Assembly: GCF_017744095.1 (NCBI RefSeq)
Contig: NZ_JAGHQX010000005.1
Span: 186,001 to 250,000, forward strand
Direction: 5' to 3'
Source of the DNA: Shimia sp. R10_1
Lineage (GTDB): Bacteria; Pseudomonadota; Alphaproteobacteria; Rhodobacterales; Rhodobacteraceae
Length of the DNA stretch: 64,000 nt
The notes beneath the pieces were generated by a model that saw nothing but the letters and a program-made list of their open reading frames with translations, did not search any database and was not told the origin of the DNA. A program made the translations under genes and the position numbers. Shown in pieces: positions 56,721-64,000 of the stretch (its first letter is position 1; the number at the start of each line of letters is the position of its first letter).

Positions 56721-57041
56721 ATGCCCAGGATTACCAAGGAAACAGACCTTCAAACCGTAATCACAACCTTTGAAATGACGCCCGGCACCTGTCAGGATCT
56801 GCTGGATGCTCTGACCGAAGCTTATGATCAATTTATTTCAAAACAGCCTGGATTCATTGCGGCAGGATTACATGTGAATGACGCGCAAACGCGGGTTGCA
56901 AATTACTCGCAGTGGCGTCGTCGCGAGGATTTTCAGAGCATGTTGCGCAGTGCGGAAATGCGGGAACGCAACCGACGTATTCACCAACTGTGTCGCAGTT
57001 TCGAGCCAGTGATGTATGATGTTGTCGAGGCTTTCGATTGA
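56721..57041 (+). CDS. Antibiotic biosynthesis monooxygenase (ABM) domain protein
   Basis: This 106-residue dimeric ferredoxin-like fold has VITTFEMTPGTCQDLLDALTEAYDQFISKQPGFIAAGLHVN and VANYSQWRRREDFQSML, the usual ABM core. Such proteins can be quinol or heme-degrading monooxygenases, or simple dimer modules. GGAGGA precedes the ATG. It is followed by a universal stress protein gene 40 bases downstream, so stress-linked expression is possible. Confidence 0.8.
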   Translation: MPRITKETDLQTVITTFEMTPGTCQDLLDALTEAYDQFISKQPGFIAAGLHVNDAQTRVANYSQWRRREDFQSMLRSAEMRERNRRIHQLCRSFEPVMYDVVEAFD

Positions 57042-57081
57042 GCATAGTCTGATCGCAGTTTCAAAGGCTTAGGAGGCCGTC

Positions 57082-57489
57082 ATGTATCATCATATCTTGG
57101 TTCCCGTGGCTTTTGATGATGGACATGATCCAAATGAGGCTATCGCTGTGGCCCGCCGGTTGGTGGCTGAGAATGGGCGCGTGAGTTTGCTGCATGTCAT
57201 GGCGCATGTCCCGAGCTATGTGATGAACTACGTGCCTGAGGGGTTTCAATCCGAGGCCCGTGCTTCAATTGAGGCCAGTCTGGAGGCCATGGGCGCAGAT
57301 TTGCCCCATGCACGCGGCATCGTGAAGGAGGGGGCCGTGGGTAAGACAATCGTTGGTTGGGCCAAAGATGAAGGTGTTGATTGCATCGTTATCGCGTCGC
57401 ATAGACCTGGGGTGCAAGATATAGTACTTGGCAGCACCGCAGCGCAGGTTGTCCGGCATGCCACCTGTGCGATACACGTCACCCGATAG
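57082..57489 (+). CDS. Universal stress protein (UspA family)
   Basis: This 135-residue protein starts MYHHILVPVAFDDGHDPNEAI and ends with the ATP-binding-type motif VLGSTAAQVVRHATCAIHVTR, both typical of UspA. The GxxG-like element lies in that block. AGGAGG precedes the ATG. It lies between an ABM protein and a secreted protein, likely in one operon. The stress it answers is unknown. Confidence 0.88.
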   Translation: MYHHILVPVAFDDGHDPNEAIAVARRLVAENGRVSLLHVMAHVPSYVMNYVPEGFQSEARASIEASLEAMGADLPHARGIVKEGAVGKTIVGWAKDEGVDCIVIASHRPGVQDIVLGSTAAQVVRHATCAIHVTR

Positions 57490-57506
57490 TGAGGAGCTCT
57501 GCCGAA

Positions 57507-58010
57507 ATGATGAAGTCTGTCAAATGGTTACGTGGTATTGCTGCGGCTGCGATTCTGTTTTTGGCGGGGCCTGTTTTTGCAGATGACGACAACGGATTCT
57601 CAGAACATCAGACCAAACGTGCGGTGGATACCTTTGAGGCAGCGTCGGCAGCCTGTGCGACTTTGGATCCGGTGTTTCGCGTAGATTGTCTGCGGCAGGC
57701 TTACAGTCAGACGGTGCGGGTTGTTGCCAATGCCTCGGTTTATTGGGAAGCAGAAGTGGCGCTGACGCGCGTGAACCGTGGGCTTTATGCGTTTGTGCGA
57801 GAGCATCTGGATCGCAGCGTTGCGCGGGTGCGGGTGAATGGCGGACGGATCAAGGCTGTGACGCCCGCGTCGGTGCCGCTGGCGCAGCAACTCTATCGCG
57901 ATGGTGTGGACCGTGCGGTGGCCGCGATGCGCGGCGCTTCGTCTTTGGAAGTGCGCTATTTCGAGCCGATCTCTCAGGCGCTTTTGGCGACAAAATCCAT
58001 GATGCAATAA
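57507..58010 (+). CDS. Hypothetical secreted helical protein
   Basis: This 167-residue protein has a signal peptide (about 1-25, ending GPVFA|DDD) followed by helical sequence: FEAASAACATLDPVFRVDCLRQAYSQTVRVVAN, then LYAFVREHLDRSVARVRVNGG and YFEPISQALLATKSMM. Two cysteines (AACATL and VDCL) may pair. GAGGAG lies about 11 bases before the ATG at 57507. I do not recognise a family. It begins 17 bases after the UspA stop, so the two are probably in one operon. Confidence 0.65.
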   Translation: MMKSVKWLRGIAAAAILFLAGPVFADDDNGFSEHQTKRAVDTFEAASAACATLDPVFRVDCLRQAYSQTVRVVANASVYWEAEVALTRVNRGLYAFVREHLDRSVARVRVNGGRIKAVTPASVPLAQQLYRDGVDRAVAAMRGASSLEVRYFEPISQALLATKSMMQ

Positions 58011-58120
58011 TCCGGTCGTCCCTGCGGTTTTGTTGCAGGGGCTTGGCGGTGCAGAACCAGCCGTTTGGGCGCCGCTTTGTCGCGACCTGATCGCGCGCGA
58101 CAAAGCTGTGTTCCGACGGG

Positions 58121-58621
58121 TTAGGCTGGATTGGTCGCAGGTGTCATATCGGCCTGCGTGAGCGTGTAAGCTTTGGCAAAGCCGCCGTTGAGAAAGCCCT
58201 TTATTGGGATCAGACGGACGAAATTGAAATCACCGAAATCCGCGTAGATTTTTGCCTTTGGGCGCTGGTCGAGATAATGCGCGCGCAAAGCCGTGTGATC
58301 TTCGCTACCGCGTGTCACAAATTCCGCCCGTGCTTGAATGGTCAGACGCGGATGGGTGAGTGGATCCCCCTTTTCGCGTGGTTCCACCAGCAGCAAGGAA
58401 CAGCGCGGATCAGCGCGCAGTGCCGTTGTGTGGCTCGCGAGGTCTGAGATCAGCGTGAGCGGTTCAAATGCCGGTGTGGTGGCGAGGGCGACGCGGGTGG
58501 CGGAGGGGGCGCCTGTCTCTGGGTCAATGACAGCCATAGAGGCGTAGGTCGCGTCTCGGATCATGGCTTGTGCAAACGCGCGGGCGTCGTCATCGGCGGG
58601 CAAAAAGGGATCTTTTTTCAT
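58121..58621 (-). CDS. Pyridoxamine 5'-phosphate oxidase-like (HugZ-type) flavoprotein
   Basis: This 166-residue split-barrel protein has ASMAVIDPETGAPSATRVALATTPAFEPLTLISDLASHT and CSLLLVEPREKGDPLTHPRLTIQARAEFV, the usual FMN-binding pattern of the PNPOx-like/HugZ group. The C-terminal block AKIYADFGDFNFVRLIPIKGFLNGGFAKAY is characteristic of HugZ-like proteins, some of which bind or degrade heme. Function here is not established. The ATG is at 58621; the repeat-rich region lies directly upstream. Confidence 0.8.
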   Translation of the reverse strand: MKKDPFLPADDDARAFAQAMIRDATYASMAVIDPETGAPSATRVALATTPAFEPLTLISDLASHTTALRADPRCSLLLVEPREKGDPLTHPRLTIQARAEFVTRGSEDHTALRAHYLDQRPKAKIYADFGDFNFVRLIPIKGFLNGGFAKAYTLTQADMTPATNPA

Positions 58622-59342
58622 ATCTCGATGTCAGCTTAGGTGAATTGGGTTTGAAATAGGCGGAGTGCGTTTGCGCTGCCGTTGGGGGGCGTGCCCCTCG
58701 GGAGAGGCTGCCTCACGCCACGGTCTAAACGCTTTGGCAAATGGCGATCTGGAGGGATGGCTGGCTGAGCGGCTGTGCCTGCGTTTGGGGCGTGCTGTCT
58801 TGCTCGATCTGGCGGTGGGCTGGATCTGGCTGGAGCGCGGGCTGCATGCGTTGGAAGCGAATTGGCGGGCCGGTCTGTCTGTCGCGATTTGGCTGGCGTG
58901 TGGCTGCCTGCGTGTGGGGCTTGCTGTCTTGCTGGACCTGGCGTTTGGCTGGGCCTTGCTGGAGCGCGCGCTGCATGCGTCGGAGGCGATATTGCTCGCT
59001 GCATTGTCTGGATGATGCTGGCTTGATCTTGGCTGCCTGCGTGCGTGGCTGGCTGTCTGGCTGGGTCTGTTATGACCTGGCTGGAGTGCGTGCTGCGTAC
59101 GTTGGTTGCGATCTGGCTCGCTGTATCTTGAGTATGTAATTAGGATGAGTCGGGTGGGGATGCAAGAAAAATCGTTTAAAAACATATACTTGATAAGTTT
59201 TGTCGGGATTGGCGTGGCCGGAGTCTTTTAGTCGGAATTGCCGGTGATCCGGCGAAATGCTGCTATGTTCTTGCGCTGACAGGTGAAAATTAAGGTACGT
59301 GCCCCTATCTCTTTCTTATCGAAACCTGAGAGGAGAGCTTTG
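58622..59342. other. 720-bp stretch with no convincing gene, containing a 129-bp tandem repeat
   Basis: No reading frame in this stretch has a ribosome site, domain or signal peptide. Several frames on both strands stay open for 250-550 bases because the repeat period is a multiple of three, not because of visible protein character. A leftward frame at 58631-59185 would encode a basic, Ser/Arg/Pro-rich repeat protein; rightward frames are Leu/Trp/Gly-rich. Comparison of repeat copies shows no third-position preference in any plus frame, so I leave it non-coding. The last 200 bases (59140-59342) include a GCCGG-TGA-TCCGGC hairpin and the ribosome site of the next gene. Confidence 0.6.
58777..59137. 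repeat. Tandem repeat, 129-bp period, three copies
   Basis: Copies start at 58777, 58906 and 59035, each with GCCTGCGT, a spacing of exactly 129 bases. Copies 1 and 2 are closely similar over their first 80 bases and diverge after that. Copy 3 is more diverged and has a deletion of about seven bases in the middle, but recovers similarity around GCTGGAG and again at CTCGCTGTAT near 59118. The sequence is unusually rich in CTG/TGG words. Confidence 0.8.
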
Positions 59343-59621
59343 ATGAAATGTCCGGTGGATGGCGCAACGCTGGTGATTGCAGACCGCAACGGGGTGGAGA
59401 TTGACTATTGCCCAGAGTGTCGTGGGGTCTGGCTGGACCGTGGAGAGCTGGACAAGATTGTGGAACGTGCCGGAGCTTATAGCGCGCCGCCGCCACCGCC
59501 GCGTCCAAGCCATGCGCAGGAGCAGCGCGGCTATGATCAGAGCTATGATTCCCGCTATCAGGGCAAGCCGCGCAAAAAGAAAAAGATGAGCAGCTTTCTG
59601 GATGACATCTTTGACTTTTGA
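59343..59621 (+). CDS. TFIIB-type zinc-ribbon small protein
   Basis: This 92-residue protein starts CPVDGATLV and continues EIDYCPECRGVWLDRGELDKIVERA, the zf-TFIIB pattern. The second cysteine of the first pair is an Asp (CPVD), which seems usual in this family. A proline run (PPPPPRP) and a basic stretch (KPRKKKKMS) lead to an acidic tail FLDDIFDF. GAGAGGAGAG precedes the ATG at 59343. Function is unknown; such proteins may bind nucleic acids or chaperone proteins. Confidence 0.8.
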   Translation: MKCPVDGATLVIADRNGVEIDYCPECRGVWLDRGELDKIVERAGAYSAPPPPPRPSHAQEQRGYDQSYDSRYQGKPRKKKKMSSFLDDIFDF

Positions 59622-59682
59622 TCCTGCGACTTAAGCAGACCAATTGGGGGCCGATGGCCCCCTTTTTGTTTCGGCGGTGCGG

Positions 59683-60066
59683 TCAGCCTTCTGGGTAGGT
59701 GGCAAAACACTGATCGGATTGGCGGGACGCATCCGCGCGCGCGGTGCGCAGATCGCGGCGCAGCGCGTCCCGCTTGGTGCGCTCGGCGCGCAGGTCAATG
59801 TCCACGGGCACTTCGACTGTGTGATATTCCACTTCGTCGCAGCGATACCAGCGGCCGTCATCGTCGCGACAGTCTTTCGGCACCAGAATGGCCTCTTCAT
59901 AGCTGTGTAGGGCGTAGCCGCGCGAGATGTTGGCGTCTGCCGTGGCAATCGCGCTTTGCAGATGGGTGACGCGGCTGTTGGCGGTGTTGAGGCAGCGCTC
60001 CAGCGGTGTGGCGCAGGCGGCGAGAGTTGAGAGGGCAAGACCCGCGAGGACAATTTTTGCGTGCAT
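59683..60066 (-). CDS. Putative lipoprotein
   Basis: This 127-residue protein has a lipobox LSTLAAC near residue 18, followed by a helical segment ERCLNTANSRVTHLQSAIATADANISRG and a cysteine-containing block KDCRDDDGRWYRCDEVEYHTVEVPVDID. The C-terminal helix ERTKRDALRRDLRTARADA looks like a short coiled coil. The ATG at 60066 is used. I do not recognise a family; outer- or inner-membrane attachment is inferred from the lipobox. Confidence 0.7.
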   Translation of the reverse strand: MHAKIVLAGLALSTLAACATPLERCLNTANSRVTHLQSAIATADANISRGYALHSYEEAILVPKDCRDDDGRWYRCDEVEYHTVEVPVDIDLRAERTKRDALRRDLRTARADASRQSDQCFATYPEG

Positions 60067-60149
60067 GTGTGACTCCGTTTTTTGCGGAGCCATGGGGCAG
60101 CGTGGGGTGACAGGCAAAAGCGGGGCGGTGTTATTGGATAACGGGTGGT

Positions 60150-60584
60150 TCAGGAGAGTTGCGCCGCTGTGCAATCGCGAAATTTCTGCACCTCTGGCGC
60201 GGCGCCGATCAGCGAGACGCCCACGGTTTGGGCCTCAGTAAAGGCCAGCGCAGTGTCGTTGAGTTGCAAGCCGTTCAGCACATTGCCAAAGCCGCTGTCC
60301 GCGACGTTGAGGGTCTGGCTGTTGTCTGAGAGCGCGTGTTCTGGCGTGGTGATGGTGATCTCATTGGGGCCGAGGAACCGCATGGCGAACCAAGGGGCTT
60401 GCTGCCACGGGTCGGACTTGCGGGTGATTGCAAGGGTGTAGAGCGGTTTGGTGGGGTCGTAGGTGAGATGGATATGCGCGTCGCTGGTCTCATGTGTGAG
60501 GGTACAGGTTTCGCCGGTGGCGGCTTCCCAGGCGCTGGCCGGGGTGGCGAGAGAAGCGAGAAAGGGGATGAGAAGGGTGCGCAT
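60150..60584 (-). CDS. Small secreted protein
   Basis: This 144-residue protein has a signal peptide (about 1-18, MRTLLIPFLASLATPASA) and a strand-rich domain with two cysteines (GETCTLTHETSDAHIHLTYDPTKPLYTLAITR and EVQKFRDCTAAQLS). The pattern suggests a disulphide-linked barrel secreted to the periplasm. No family is recognised. It lies about 80 bases upstream of the lipoprotein gene on the same strand, so the two may form an operon. Confidence 0.7.
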   Translation of the reverse strand: MRTLLIPFLASLATPASAWEAATGETCTLTHETSDAHIHLTYDPTKPLYTLAITRKSDPWQQAPWFAMRFLGPNEITITTPEHALSDNSQTLNVADSGFGNVLNGLQLNDTALAFTEAQTVGVSLIGAAPEVQKFRDCTAAQLS

Positions 60585-60792
60585 ATTGACAGGGTAACGA
60601 TTGGTAAGGCGTGGGCCAAGTTACAGGGAGGCGCGGCACAAAACGCACAGTATCTCGGCACTACTATTCGAGCATACCGATTGGCTCAATGTGTTTGGCG
60701 CAGTTACATACGTACAGTTCAGGGGAGTAGGTGGGAAGAACTGAAAGGTTTTTATGCAGGCACGATGCGGGGTGAAGGGAGCTATGGGGCGT

Positions 60793-61461
60793 TCAGCTAC
60801 TAGTCAAATGTAGAAAACATGTTTCTGCCAGATCTGCAAATTCTCTGACTTCATCGCCAAAGTCAATTTGTTGAGAAAATACATTGTCTTTCAAGTGCCC
60901 GATTGCTTCATAGGGTAGTTTGCCCTCGGAGAAATACCGTCGTGATGTTTCCGAAAAAACTTCCGTCAGACCAATTGTAGCCTGAAGGTGGGATTTGCCG
61001 AGTTCAATTAGTTGCTCAGGGCATGCGTCATCAGTCCAGATTTCCAGATGTTTGATGTGTCGCTCGTATTCCGCCATGTGATTATGCATCACCGTATCAT
61101 ATCCTAAAATATGATTGTTTAGCGTTGCTTGATGTCTCCGCATTTCTGCAATCAAAGGATCATTAGGGTCGGCCATCATTTTTATTGTTGCTTCATAAAA
61201 ATGATGTTCAACCAATGCGTTGTTTTTGTATGAGAGCTGTATTGTGAATTTCTGATGATAGAATAAAATGTCGGATAGTTTTTTGTGCGCTTCTTCAGCT
61301 CGCTCTTGAGAGATGCCAGTTTCGAATTGCACCCTCCAGTTTTCTAGATCATTTTTTAAGCTCTTGGTTGAAATGAAAAAATTTGCGATTGCTGAAAGTA
61401 TGGCAACTAGAAGTGAGACGATTACTTTGTCGCGAAGAGAGATTCTTGCATTTTTAGACAT
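60793..61461 (-). CDS. Orphan single-pass membrane protein with helical cytosolic or periplasmic domain
   Basis: This 222-residue protein has one N-terminal transmembrane helix (about 12-32, KVIVSLLVAILSAIANFFIS) and then a long helical domain, including a coiled-coil-like start (LKNDLENWRVQFETGISQERAEEAHKKLSDIL) and many histidines (LVEHHFYEATIKM, VMHNHMAEYERHIKHLE). The DNA is clearly richer in A/T than its neighbours, and codon choice differs (more AAT, TTT, ATT). GGAAG lies eight bases before the ATG. I recognise no family. The composition points to recent acquisition. Confidence 0.7.
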   Translation of the reverse strand: MSKNARISLRDKVIVSLLVAILSAIANFFISTKSLKNDLENWRVQFETGISQERAEEAHKKLSDILFYHQKFTIQLSYKNNALVEHHFYEATIKMMADPNDPLIAEMRRHQATLNNHILGYDTVMHNHMAEYERHIKHLEIWTDDACPEQLIELGKSHLQATIGLTEVFSETSRRYFSEGKLPYEAIGHLKDNVFSQQIDFGDEVREFADLAETCFLHLTSS

Positions 61462-61508: not shown

Positions 61509-63701
61509 TCAACGCCCCCTCTTGCTCCGCACATTGCCCCCACGTTGCCCGGCACGACCCGCCGTTGAGCGGCCTCGGCTTTTCACAGCATCTTCTTCAG
61601 CGGCTTTGATTGCGTATTGTCGGGCCATCGGATCATCCGCCACGGCCAAATCCACGGCCTCAAGCCGTTTGATCTCATCACGCAGACGCGCGGCTTCTTC
61701 GAATTCGAGGTTCTCGGCGGCTTTGCGCATGTCATCGCGCAGGCCGGAGAGCACCGCCTCCAGATTGCCGCCAGCCAGCGGGTTGTCGATCTTGGCGGTG
61801 ACGCGGCTTTGGTCGGTGTCGCCCTGATATAGGCCCGCCAGCACATCCTCGACGTTCTTTTTGACCGTGGCCGGGGTGATGCCGTGTTCTTCGTTGTAGG
61901 CCATCTGTTTGGCGCGGCGGCGGTTGGTTTCGCCAATCGCGCGCTCCATGGAGCCGGTCATGCGGTCGGCGTACATGATCACGCGGCCCTCGGCGTTGCG
62001 TGCGGCGCGGCCGATGGTCTGCACAAGGGAGGTTTCCGAGCGCAAAAAGCCCTCTTTGTCTGCATCGAGAATGGCGACAAGGCCACATTCGGGGATGTCG
62101 AGACCCTCGCGCAGAAGGTTGATGCCGATCAGCACGTCAAAGGCGCCAAGGCGCAGGTCGCGCAGGATTTCGATGCGCTCCAGCGTGTCGATGTCGCTGT
62201 GCATGTAGCGGACTTTCACGCCCTGCTCGTGCAGGTATTCGGTGAGATCTTCGGCCATGCGTTTGGTGAGGGTTGTCACCAGCGTGCGGAAGCCGTCTTG
62301 CGTCACTTTACGGATCTCATCCAGCAGATCGTCCACCTGCATCTCAACCGGGCGGATCTCCACCTCTGGGTCCAGCAGGCCTGTGGGGCGGATGACCTGT
62401 TCGCTGAACACGCCGCCGGATTGCTCCATCTCCCAGTTTGAGGGCGTGGCGGAGACAAAGACGGATTGGGAGCGCATGGCGTCCCATTCTTCAAATTTCA
62501 GCGGGCGGTTGTCCATGCAGGAGGGCAGGCGGAAGCCGTGTTCCGCGAGGGTGAATTTGCGGCGGTAGTCGCCCCGGTACATGCCGCCGATTTGCGGCAC
62601 CGACACGTGGGATTCATCAGCAAAGACAATGGCGTTGTCAGGGATGAATTCAAACAGGGTGGGGGGTGGCTCGCCCGGCGCGCGGCCGGTGAGGTAGCGG
62701 GAGTAGTTTTCAATCCCGTTGCAGAAGCCCTGCGCCTCTAGCATCTCCAGATCGAAGTTGGTGCGTTGCTCCAGCCGCTGCGCCTCAAGCAGTTTGCCCT
62801 CGTCTACCAGTTGATCGAGCCGCTGGCGCAGCTCTTTCTTGATGTTCACAATCGCCTGATTGAGCGTGGGCTTGGGTGTGACGTAGTGGCTGTTGGCATA
62901 GACCCGGATCTGCTCAAACGTATCAGTTTTTTCGCCGGTCAGCGGATCAAACTCGGTGATGCTTTCCAGCTCTTCGCCAAAGAAAGAGAGCTTCCAGGCG
63001 CGATCTTCGAGGTGGGCGGGGAAGATTTCAAGGCTGTCGCCACGCACGCGGAAAGAGCCACGTTGGAAGGCCGCGTCATTGCGGCGGTATTGCTGCGCCA
63101 CCAGATCGGCGATCACTTGACGCTGGTCATATTCGCCGCCCGCTTTCAGATCGAGGGTCATGGCAGAGTAAGTTTCCACCGAGCCGATGCCGTAGATGCA
63201 GGAGACCGACGCGACAATGATCACATCGTCCCGTTCCAGCAAAGCCCGCGTGGCGGAGTGGCGCATGCGGTCGATCTGTTCGTTGATCTGGCTTTCTTTC
63301 TCAATGAAGGTGTCGCTGCGCGGCACATAGGCCTCGGGCTGGTAGTAGTCATAAAAGCTGACGAAATATTCGACGGCGTTTTCCGGGAAGAAGCCTTTCA
63401 TCTCGCCATAGAGCTGCGCGGCGAGCGTTTTGTTGGGCGCGAGGATAATGGCGGGGCGTTGTGTCTCTTCGATCACCTTGGCCATGGTGAAGGTTTTGCC
63501 GGTGCCGGTTGCGCCAAGCAGCACCTGATTGCGATCACCTTCGTTGATGCCCGCGGAGAGTTCGGCAATCGCTGTGGGCTGATCGCCCGCGGGCTCAAAC
63601 TCTGTGTGCATCACGATCCGCTTGCCGCCCTCAAGTTTGGGGCGGCGGACAGCCTCGGGGCCGGGGCTGTTCAGCAGGGGGGCGTTAGCAGCGTCGCTCA
63701 T
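61509..63701 (-). CDS. uvrB: Excinuclease ABC subunit B (UvrB)
   Basis: This 730-residue helicase-like protein verifies damage in nucleotide excision repair and hands DNA to UvrC. Visible features are Walker [15 protein letters not shown], the beta-hairpin region [22 protein letters not shown], the later helicase motifs ([24 protein letters not shown]), and a C-terminal UVR domain ([16 protein letters not shown]). The ATG at 63701 has GGAG six bases upstream; the frame is open to 63788. The tail after the UVR domain (about 700-730) is basic and Gly/Arg-rich. Confidence 0.97.
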
Positions 63702-64000
63702 CAGAGACTCCATCGCGGGGGCAGATTGTGCTGCTGATTTTGGTCTCTTTTTGTTCCTGTGCAAGGGCGAAAGCGCATTTGGAGGCATTCTGTGGATCTG
63801 GCCCTGCCCCGTGATGATCCGCGCGCGTGTTTGCGGGTGCAGAAAAGAGGCATGATCGCACTGTGCTTTGAACAGCTCGGGCCGAATTGATTTACCTAGG
63901 GTTAATCACAGAGAAGTTCCTTTGGGTAAGAAGTTTCGATATATTTTGAAATAATAGGAAATAGTTCCACGCATTTGTGAAACTAAATATATACTGCACT
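63702..64000. other. Region upstream of uvrB to the window edge
   Basis: About 300 bases with no supported gene. The last 130 bases are A/T-rich and probably contain the uvrB promoter or the start of another intergenic region. A rightward frame (63604-63855) is the antisense shadow of uvrB's 5' end. Confidence 0.4.

Follow-up and report, generated by a model that had tools for sequence, protein, structure and literature searches.

A probable leftward small RNA gene with three tandem rod-like units in a Rhodobacteraceae genome

Within the window, the whole 64,000-nt stretch of Shimia sp. R10_1 DNA that was analysed, lies a repeat array that most likely represents an undescribed small RNA gene, present three times in tandem, whose product is predicted to fold into an unusually regular rod. 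The sequence evidence makes it very probable that the array is a structured RNA gene read leftward, while the suggestion that the RNA works as a decoy is tentative. The full reading, in which a leftward, triplicated rod sRNA gene acts as a multivalent decoy, is given a probability of about 0.45. Comparison supports the predicted gene together with its strand, fold, family, variable motif number and matching module behind a protein gene. Read this way, an odd repeat leads to an RNA gene family, open to experimental test, in one of the major marine bacterial groups. The family can be recognised by its upstream element, is predicted to fold unusually and differs widely in length from genus to genus, and a matching module lies behind a protein gene.

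The array, its relatives and its signals

Tandem Repeats Finder reports a period of 129 with 2.2 copies and 78% matches at 58776-59064. In a repeat search, copies 1 and 2 are 80% identical across 106 nt at a spacing of 129; a 51-nt repeat family has three copies spaced 129 + 129, and a 44-nt family is spaced 129 + 122, the second value being 122 instead of 129 because of a seven-base deletion in copy 3. The three copies 129 apart and the deletion, both described in the original prediction, are real, and the 720-bp gene-free stretch in which it placed them was also confirmed, with a gap of about 720 bp between the start codon of a HutZ/HugZ-like gene at 58621 and the start of a Zn-ribbon gene at 59343. 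Elsewhere in the window, a 27-bp tandem repeat of 1.9 copies (62314-62365) lies within a reading frame (61509-63788) read as uvrB.

All three units are on the minus strand and are recovered over the full length (positions 1-113) of model R1, which was built from ten rods that include copy 3 and exclude copies 1 and 2. Copy 3 (59017-59122) is promoter-proximal, carries the 7-nt deletion at its tip and scores 104.3 bits. Copy 2 (58892-59000) scores 79.7 bits and keeps 24 of 29 consensus pairs; copy 1 (58760-58871), the most diverged, scores 62.6 bits and keeps 26 of 29. In a tree of 12 rods, copies 1 and 2 were grouped (94/95) and no branch reached the double threshold of the program. No plasmid match was found.

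When window positions 58700-59190 were used as a DNA query against 60 genomes, 10 matched (own included), all from the same genus. In the nine others the match is confined to 59013-59190 (copy 3 and its right flank), and each has one unit per locus at the same place; alignment shows copy 3 and the promoter region of the window to be close to these relatives. Across 25 genomes of the genus, 10 have the window-type locus, two have a form beside rpoH and 13 are without a recognisable one; the strand opposite rpoH holds up to two GCCAGC in some of these 13. Downstream of the RNA, a minus-strand gene (58121-58621) encodes a PNPOx-family HutZ/HugZ-like protein (Pfam PF01243, 3.1e-10; NCBIfam HutZ, 5.2e-12, under the model cut-off), which tblastn finds in seven of the nine relatives' loci (set L001-L010). 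The divergent neighbour (59343-59621, plus strand) encodes a TFIIB-type Zn-ribbon protein (Pfam PF13453, 1.6e-19), found by tblastn in eight of the nine. The genus has 18 Zn-ribbon matches, and in the 14 loci examined the upstream element described below is present upstream in nine (own included) and absent in five.

This conserved element, TGTTTTTAAACGATTTT (59168-59184, minus strand), is the genus form of TCAACTATNTGNTTT..TTTT; in a leftward-strand alignment of ten genomes its invariant block is TGTTTTTAAAC. The window array thus has an element of the TCAACTATNTGNTTT/TGTTTTTAAAC type that marks the family. It gives a single match per genome in 9 of the 25 genus genomes and none in 16. Downstream of the block, the ten aligned genomes share, in order, TTG where a -35 would lie, a weak TA..TA and a CAA-type leader, followed by a CCAGC-rich stretch of about 100-115 nt. 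A putative core promoter (59137-59165, minus strand), suggested by column conservation across the ten genomes and by TTGAC-type -35s in other genera, would consist of a -35-like TTGCAT (59165-59160), a 17-nt spacer and a weak -10-like TAATTA (59142-59137), with the RNA probably starting near 59130. Element and promoter together (59137-59184) would drive a leftward non-coding RNA. Promoter and terminator calls are based on conservation and inspection, since consensus scans scored neither; the scan for sigma-70 sites found none on either strand.

How would such a transcript end? In the nine relatives the unit closes with an inverted repeat such as CGGCGCCCAGG..CCCAGGCGCCG plus a T run, and this terminator-like hairpin is missing after the last rod in the window. 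A consensus scan with a loop limit of 8, smaller than the loop of the stem, found no terminator at the array end in the window or in the relative's locus L003; its sole leftward terminator-like match in window 58000-60000 is at 58418-58403, inside the HutZ-like gene. Because the usual terminator is missing in the window, read-through is possible, and the three-rod RNA in this genome may end elsewhere or continue into the HutZ-like gene. By eye, the stretch from rod copy 1 to that gene (58622-58759) is without the relatives' T-tailed GGCGCC stem; it does contain an inverted repeat, GGCGTG/CACGCC, with no T run.

The original prediction doubted plus-strand coding and turned to the leftward strand, rightly so. 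Its leftward repeat protein (58631-59185) fares badly and is now scarcely credible. The frame is long and open in the window, and from the element it stays open through the unit in five of ten genomes. It is broken in the other five; units of 102-114 nt across the ten genomes shift the reading frame; it has no Pfam match, and it would start upstream of the inferred -35 and promoter. A conserved reading frame is accordingly disfavoured.

Predicted fold and covariation of the rod

The leftward RNA is predicted to form a rod in which short stems, mostly of 2 bp and mostly G-C, alternate with 2x2 internal loops. In alignment A5, whose 12 rows are related and were fitted to the model structure, which favours covariation values, standard pairs fill 98.5% of 336 pair cells, and two-sided changes are seen at 10 of 29 pairs; slid controls are 18-31% paired, and neither value was matched in any of 500 shuffles. 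The number of further pair types does not stand out, as 58 of the 500 reach it. Loop letters are 94.6% A or C (56.6% A, 38.0% C), and A.C mismatches number 118 of 212 against 91 expected. The paired columns contain 13 G.U cells versus four C.A, an excess in favour of folding by the leftward strand.

A search for chains in which stems of at least 2 bp alternate with 2x2 loops covered two contigs (676 kb of 4.37 Mb). Chains of six or more loops occur at copy 1 (8), copy 2 (7) and one other locus (6); three dinucleotide shuffles per contig gave none. For copy 3 the score is 5, which is equalled at a few other genomic places and in some shuffles; with 4 or 5 loops, the contrast between real and shuffled DNA is smaller. 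A partial rod is expected from the self-pairing of GCCAGC alone. Fold energy relative to shuffles marks copy 3 as a clear rod (z -5.42), while copies 1 and 2 have no advantage over shuffled sequence (z 0.51 and 0.47, respectively); the locus-II rod of this genome (z -0.85) and the short L199 member (z -1.28), both described below, are not clearly better. Covarying stems every 4 nt with 2x2 loops are thus found in the array, with weaker energy support for copies 1 and 2. If the rod fold is true, evolution would here have built an RNA on regular 2x2 mismatches, which would be unusual.

The differences between the window copies bear on whether the fold has been maintained. In the three pairwise comparisons, changes fall at 9/52 paired versus 15/49 unpaired columns, 5/54 versus 20/54 and 11/55 versus 21/50, which sum to 25/161 paired and 56/153 unpaired positions. 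This bias and the single unit in the nine relatives speak against an ordinary minisatellite, one of the readings offered in the original prediction. The bias also bears on the idea that, in this genome only, an RNA gene that used to function has become a tandem array that is decaying or neutral. The unremarkable fold energies of copies 1 and 2, their lower R1 scores and the missing terminator would suit decay, but paired columns changed less than unpaired ones in three of three comparisons, and copy 3 and the promoter region have stayed near the relatives. Such decay is decidedly unlikely.

Related RNAs within and beyond the genus

The third chain locus (C36:128852-128926, L028), which holds the locus-II rod, lies directly after the stop codon of a gene for a 65-aa cysteine-containing protein with no Pfam or NCBIfam match. 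This gene is present in 5 of the 25 genus genomes, and three GCCAGC follow its stop codon in all five (the other loci being L024, L025, L026 and L245), with a terminator-like repeat visible in the DNA after the GCCAGC module each time. Chain scores at the five loci are 6, 0, 3, 3 and 4, and R1 matches four of them. All five genomes also carry the main locus, and could just be close relatives.

Is the RNA found outside the genus? An Rfam search of window 57000-61000 and of loci L002-L010, at E up to 1, gave no match on the array; its three weak matches all lie elsewhere. With the window's own genome counted in each set, R1 matches 12 of the 25 genomes from the genus and 8 of the 295 from the family, leaving 13 and 287 with no match; no upstream element is present in the 130 nt displayed for the family matches L031, L033 and L035, which may be due to chance. 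A search that left the rod unused was more productive. Scanned alone over public genomes, the upstream element gave at least 119 matches in 118 stretches, or at least 115 once four with <150 nt downstream (L071, L094, L123 and L136) were dropped. Counted on the same strand within 400 nt, GCCAGC occurs at least twice at 15 of the at least 115 matches listed, once at two and not at all at 98. These 15 are Rhodobacterales by title except for two records, and GCCAGC is absent at three other Rhodobacterales-titled element matches (L095, L097 and L100). Among the matches listed, in other genera, the number of GCCAGC per 400 nt spans 2 to 15, and in the same 15 loci three GCCAGC are reached by 2.2% of 1,701 background windows. 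Three clustered GCCAGC, sought without the element in 25 genomes, gave 0 to 37 unclassified matches per strand and genome over all 25, against 0 to 6 for the control. A shorter element pattern run over the 295 family genomes gave 14 matches, one per genome, of which eight lead GCCAGC RNAs and six do not.

The 400-nt pieces of L145 (JAHVJD010000002.1, Nocardioides marinus DP1N28-1) and L087 (JAFKDC010000011.1, Enemella evansiae TN21-6) are identical to G285 and G026, which belong to the window's family, and both records are probably mislabelled.

The family form of the element precedes GCCAGC RNAs at 21 distinct loci from the matches listed, a set in which the identical L087 and L197 are counted once. 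On the RNA strand these loci hold 147 GCCAGC and no GCTGGC; G-C steps at lag 4 number 177 versus 70 +- 7 when shuffled, and 2x2 chains of three or more loops number 20 versus 4.4 (maximum 8) in 50 shuffles. A plus-strand RNA was considered, as the opposite strand gives a more stable fold than the leftward one, and rejected: the added stability arises because A.C becomes G.U, and the element, the T-tailed stem, the GCCAGC bias (147 versus 0) and the G.U excess (13 versus 4) all point leftward.

That the element-only scan leads to GCCAGC-rich RNAs argues that the array belongs to a small-RNA family whose members differ greatly in length. The shortest members seen, L196 and L199, have one short rod and then a terminator-like repeat. 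In the rods of this genus exact GCCAGC is scarce (0-4 per unit, with 1-7 CCAGC), and the window units have 1-2 exact GCCAGC and 3-4 CCAGC each; likeness to the family is therefore carried in the genus by periodic stems and not by the exact motif. Downstream of the element in L060, from a Rhodobacteraceae MAG, the RNA strand has a chain of seven loops with two GCCAGC in 400 nt, which suggests that the fold can persist with few exact motifs.

The neighbours of the RNA change. In other genera and in the genus genomes G022 and G020 it is convergent to rpoH (RpoH confirmed by NCBIfam), and other family loci adjoin lolA-like or metH-like genes, as read from sequence. That the neighbours change while the upstream element and body are shared is an argument for action in trans. 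A cis element controlling the HutZ/HugZ-like gene downstream, as a leader or in a terminator-like way, is improbable. It would account for the position of the array upstream of that gene in the same direction in the window, for the presence of the gene in seven of the nine relatives' loci and for the possible read-through where the usual terminator is absent, but L005 and L006 carry the RNA without the gene in the locus, a terminator-like stem separates RNA and gene in relatives, and beyond the genus the RNA sits by rpoH or other genes.

Possible modes of action

In the proposed mechanism, the RNA body is a rod of CCAGC/GCCAGC-type motifs, single in nine relatives and triplicated here, and the rod/GCCAGC modules may act as repeated binding sites for an RNA-binding protein. 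In trans, the RNA could be a multivalent decoy that follows CsrB/RsmZ-type logic only and would draw that protein off transcripts with the same module, for example behind the 65-aa gene; more rods would mean more binding capacity. The protein-binding array suggested in the original prediction may thus be near the truth at the level of RNA, and a structured RNA was not among the readings it offered. A more ambitious proposal is a new Rhodobacterales RNA class, in which the periodic ladder of 2-bp stems and 2x2 loops would be a multivalent platform for an RNA-binding protein, the number of rods would tune its capacity and matching modules would occur in mRNA 3' UTRs; this is somewhat unlikely. 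The reading predicts a specific RNA-protein (or RNA-RNA) partner and provides a route to finding one.

CsrB/CsrC and RsmX/Y/Z are protein-sequestering sRNAs with GGA motifs in loops. Like CsrB/RsmZ, the rod RNA has one motif many times in numbers that differ between genomes, and the same module is found on a transcript elsewhere. It differs in having CCAGC/GCCAGC in the paired steps of a very regular rod, and GGA is not repeated, with 0-1 per unit in 12 units.

In type III toxin-antitoxin systems, for example ToxI, a promoter is followed by tandem RNA repeats, a terminator and then a gene. The array and its relatives together resemble this layout, with the terminator-like hairpin in the relatives, which have one unit only; the gene downstream in the window is PNPOx/HutZ-like, with no ToxN/CptN/TenpN-like toxin there by Pfam and NCBIfam, and the neighbours differ in other genera. 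CCUG-repeat hairpins likewise have 2-bp G-C steps separated by 2x2 loops, in common with the rod RNA, which differs in its varied, covarying sequence, its A/C loops, its place in a bacterial gene and its conserved upstream element.

The main rival to the decoy is a base-pairing (antisense-type) sRNA, perhaps dependent on Hfq, in which CCAGC/GCCAGC would be seeds that pair with GCUGG(C) in target mRNAs. Consistent with this are the repetition of one short motif on a single strand, the compact gene and its terminator-like end in relatives, as is the conservation of Hfq in the Roseobacter clade, where it is among the most conserved genes according to the accessible part of PMC4809877. The motif in this genus lies within stems with two-sided covariation and not in an open loop, and base pairing is considered unlikely.

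Returning to the multivalent decoy, another alphaproteobacterial RNA that acts as a sponge is CrfA of Caulobacter, treated with the SisA-D sRNAs in the accessible text of PMC12559287; CrfA differs in that it sponges sRNAs. Structured RNAs confined to Rhodobacterales are described in the accessible portions of PMC8632094: HRC-8-4 resembles a terminator stem and lies between cco operons, and uORFC-8-2 resembles an attenuator and lies upstream of cysS, contexts and folds unlike those of the rod RNA. The accessible parts of the literature searched, including PMC4809877, PMC5107571, PMC8632094 and PMC2864571, describe no such RNA. The Ruegeria pomeroyi survey reports 30 trans-encoded sRNAs, with coordinates in a supplement to the available text, and may include a member of the family (PMC4809877).
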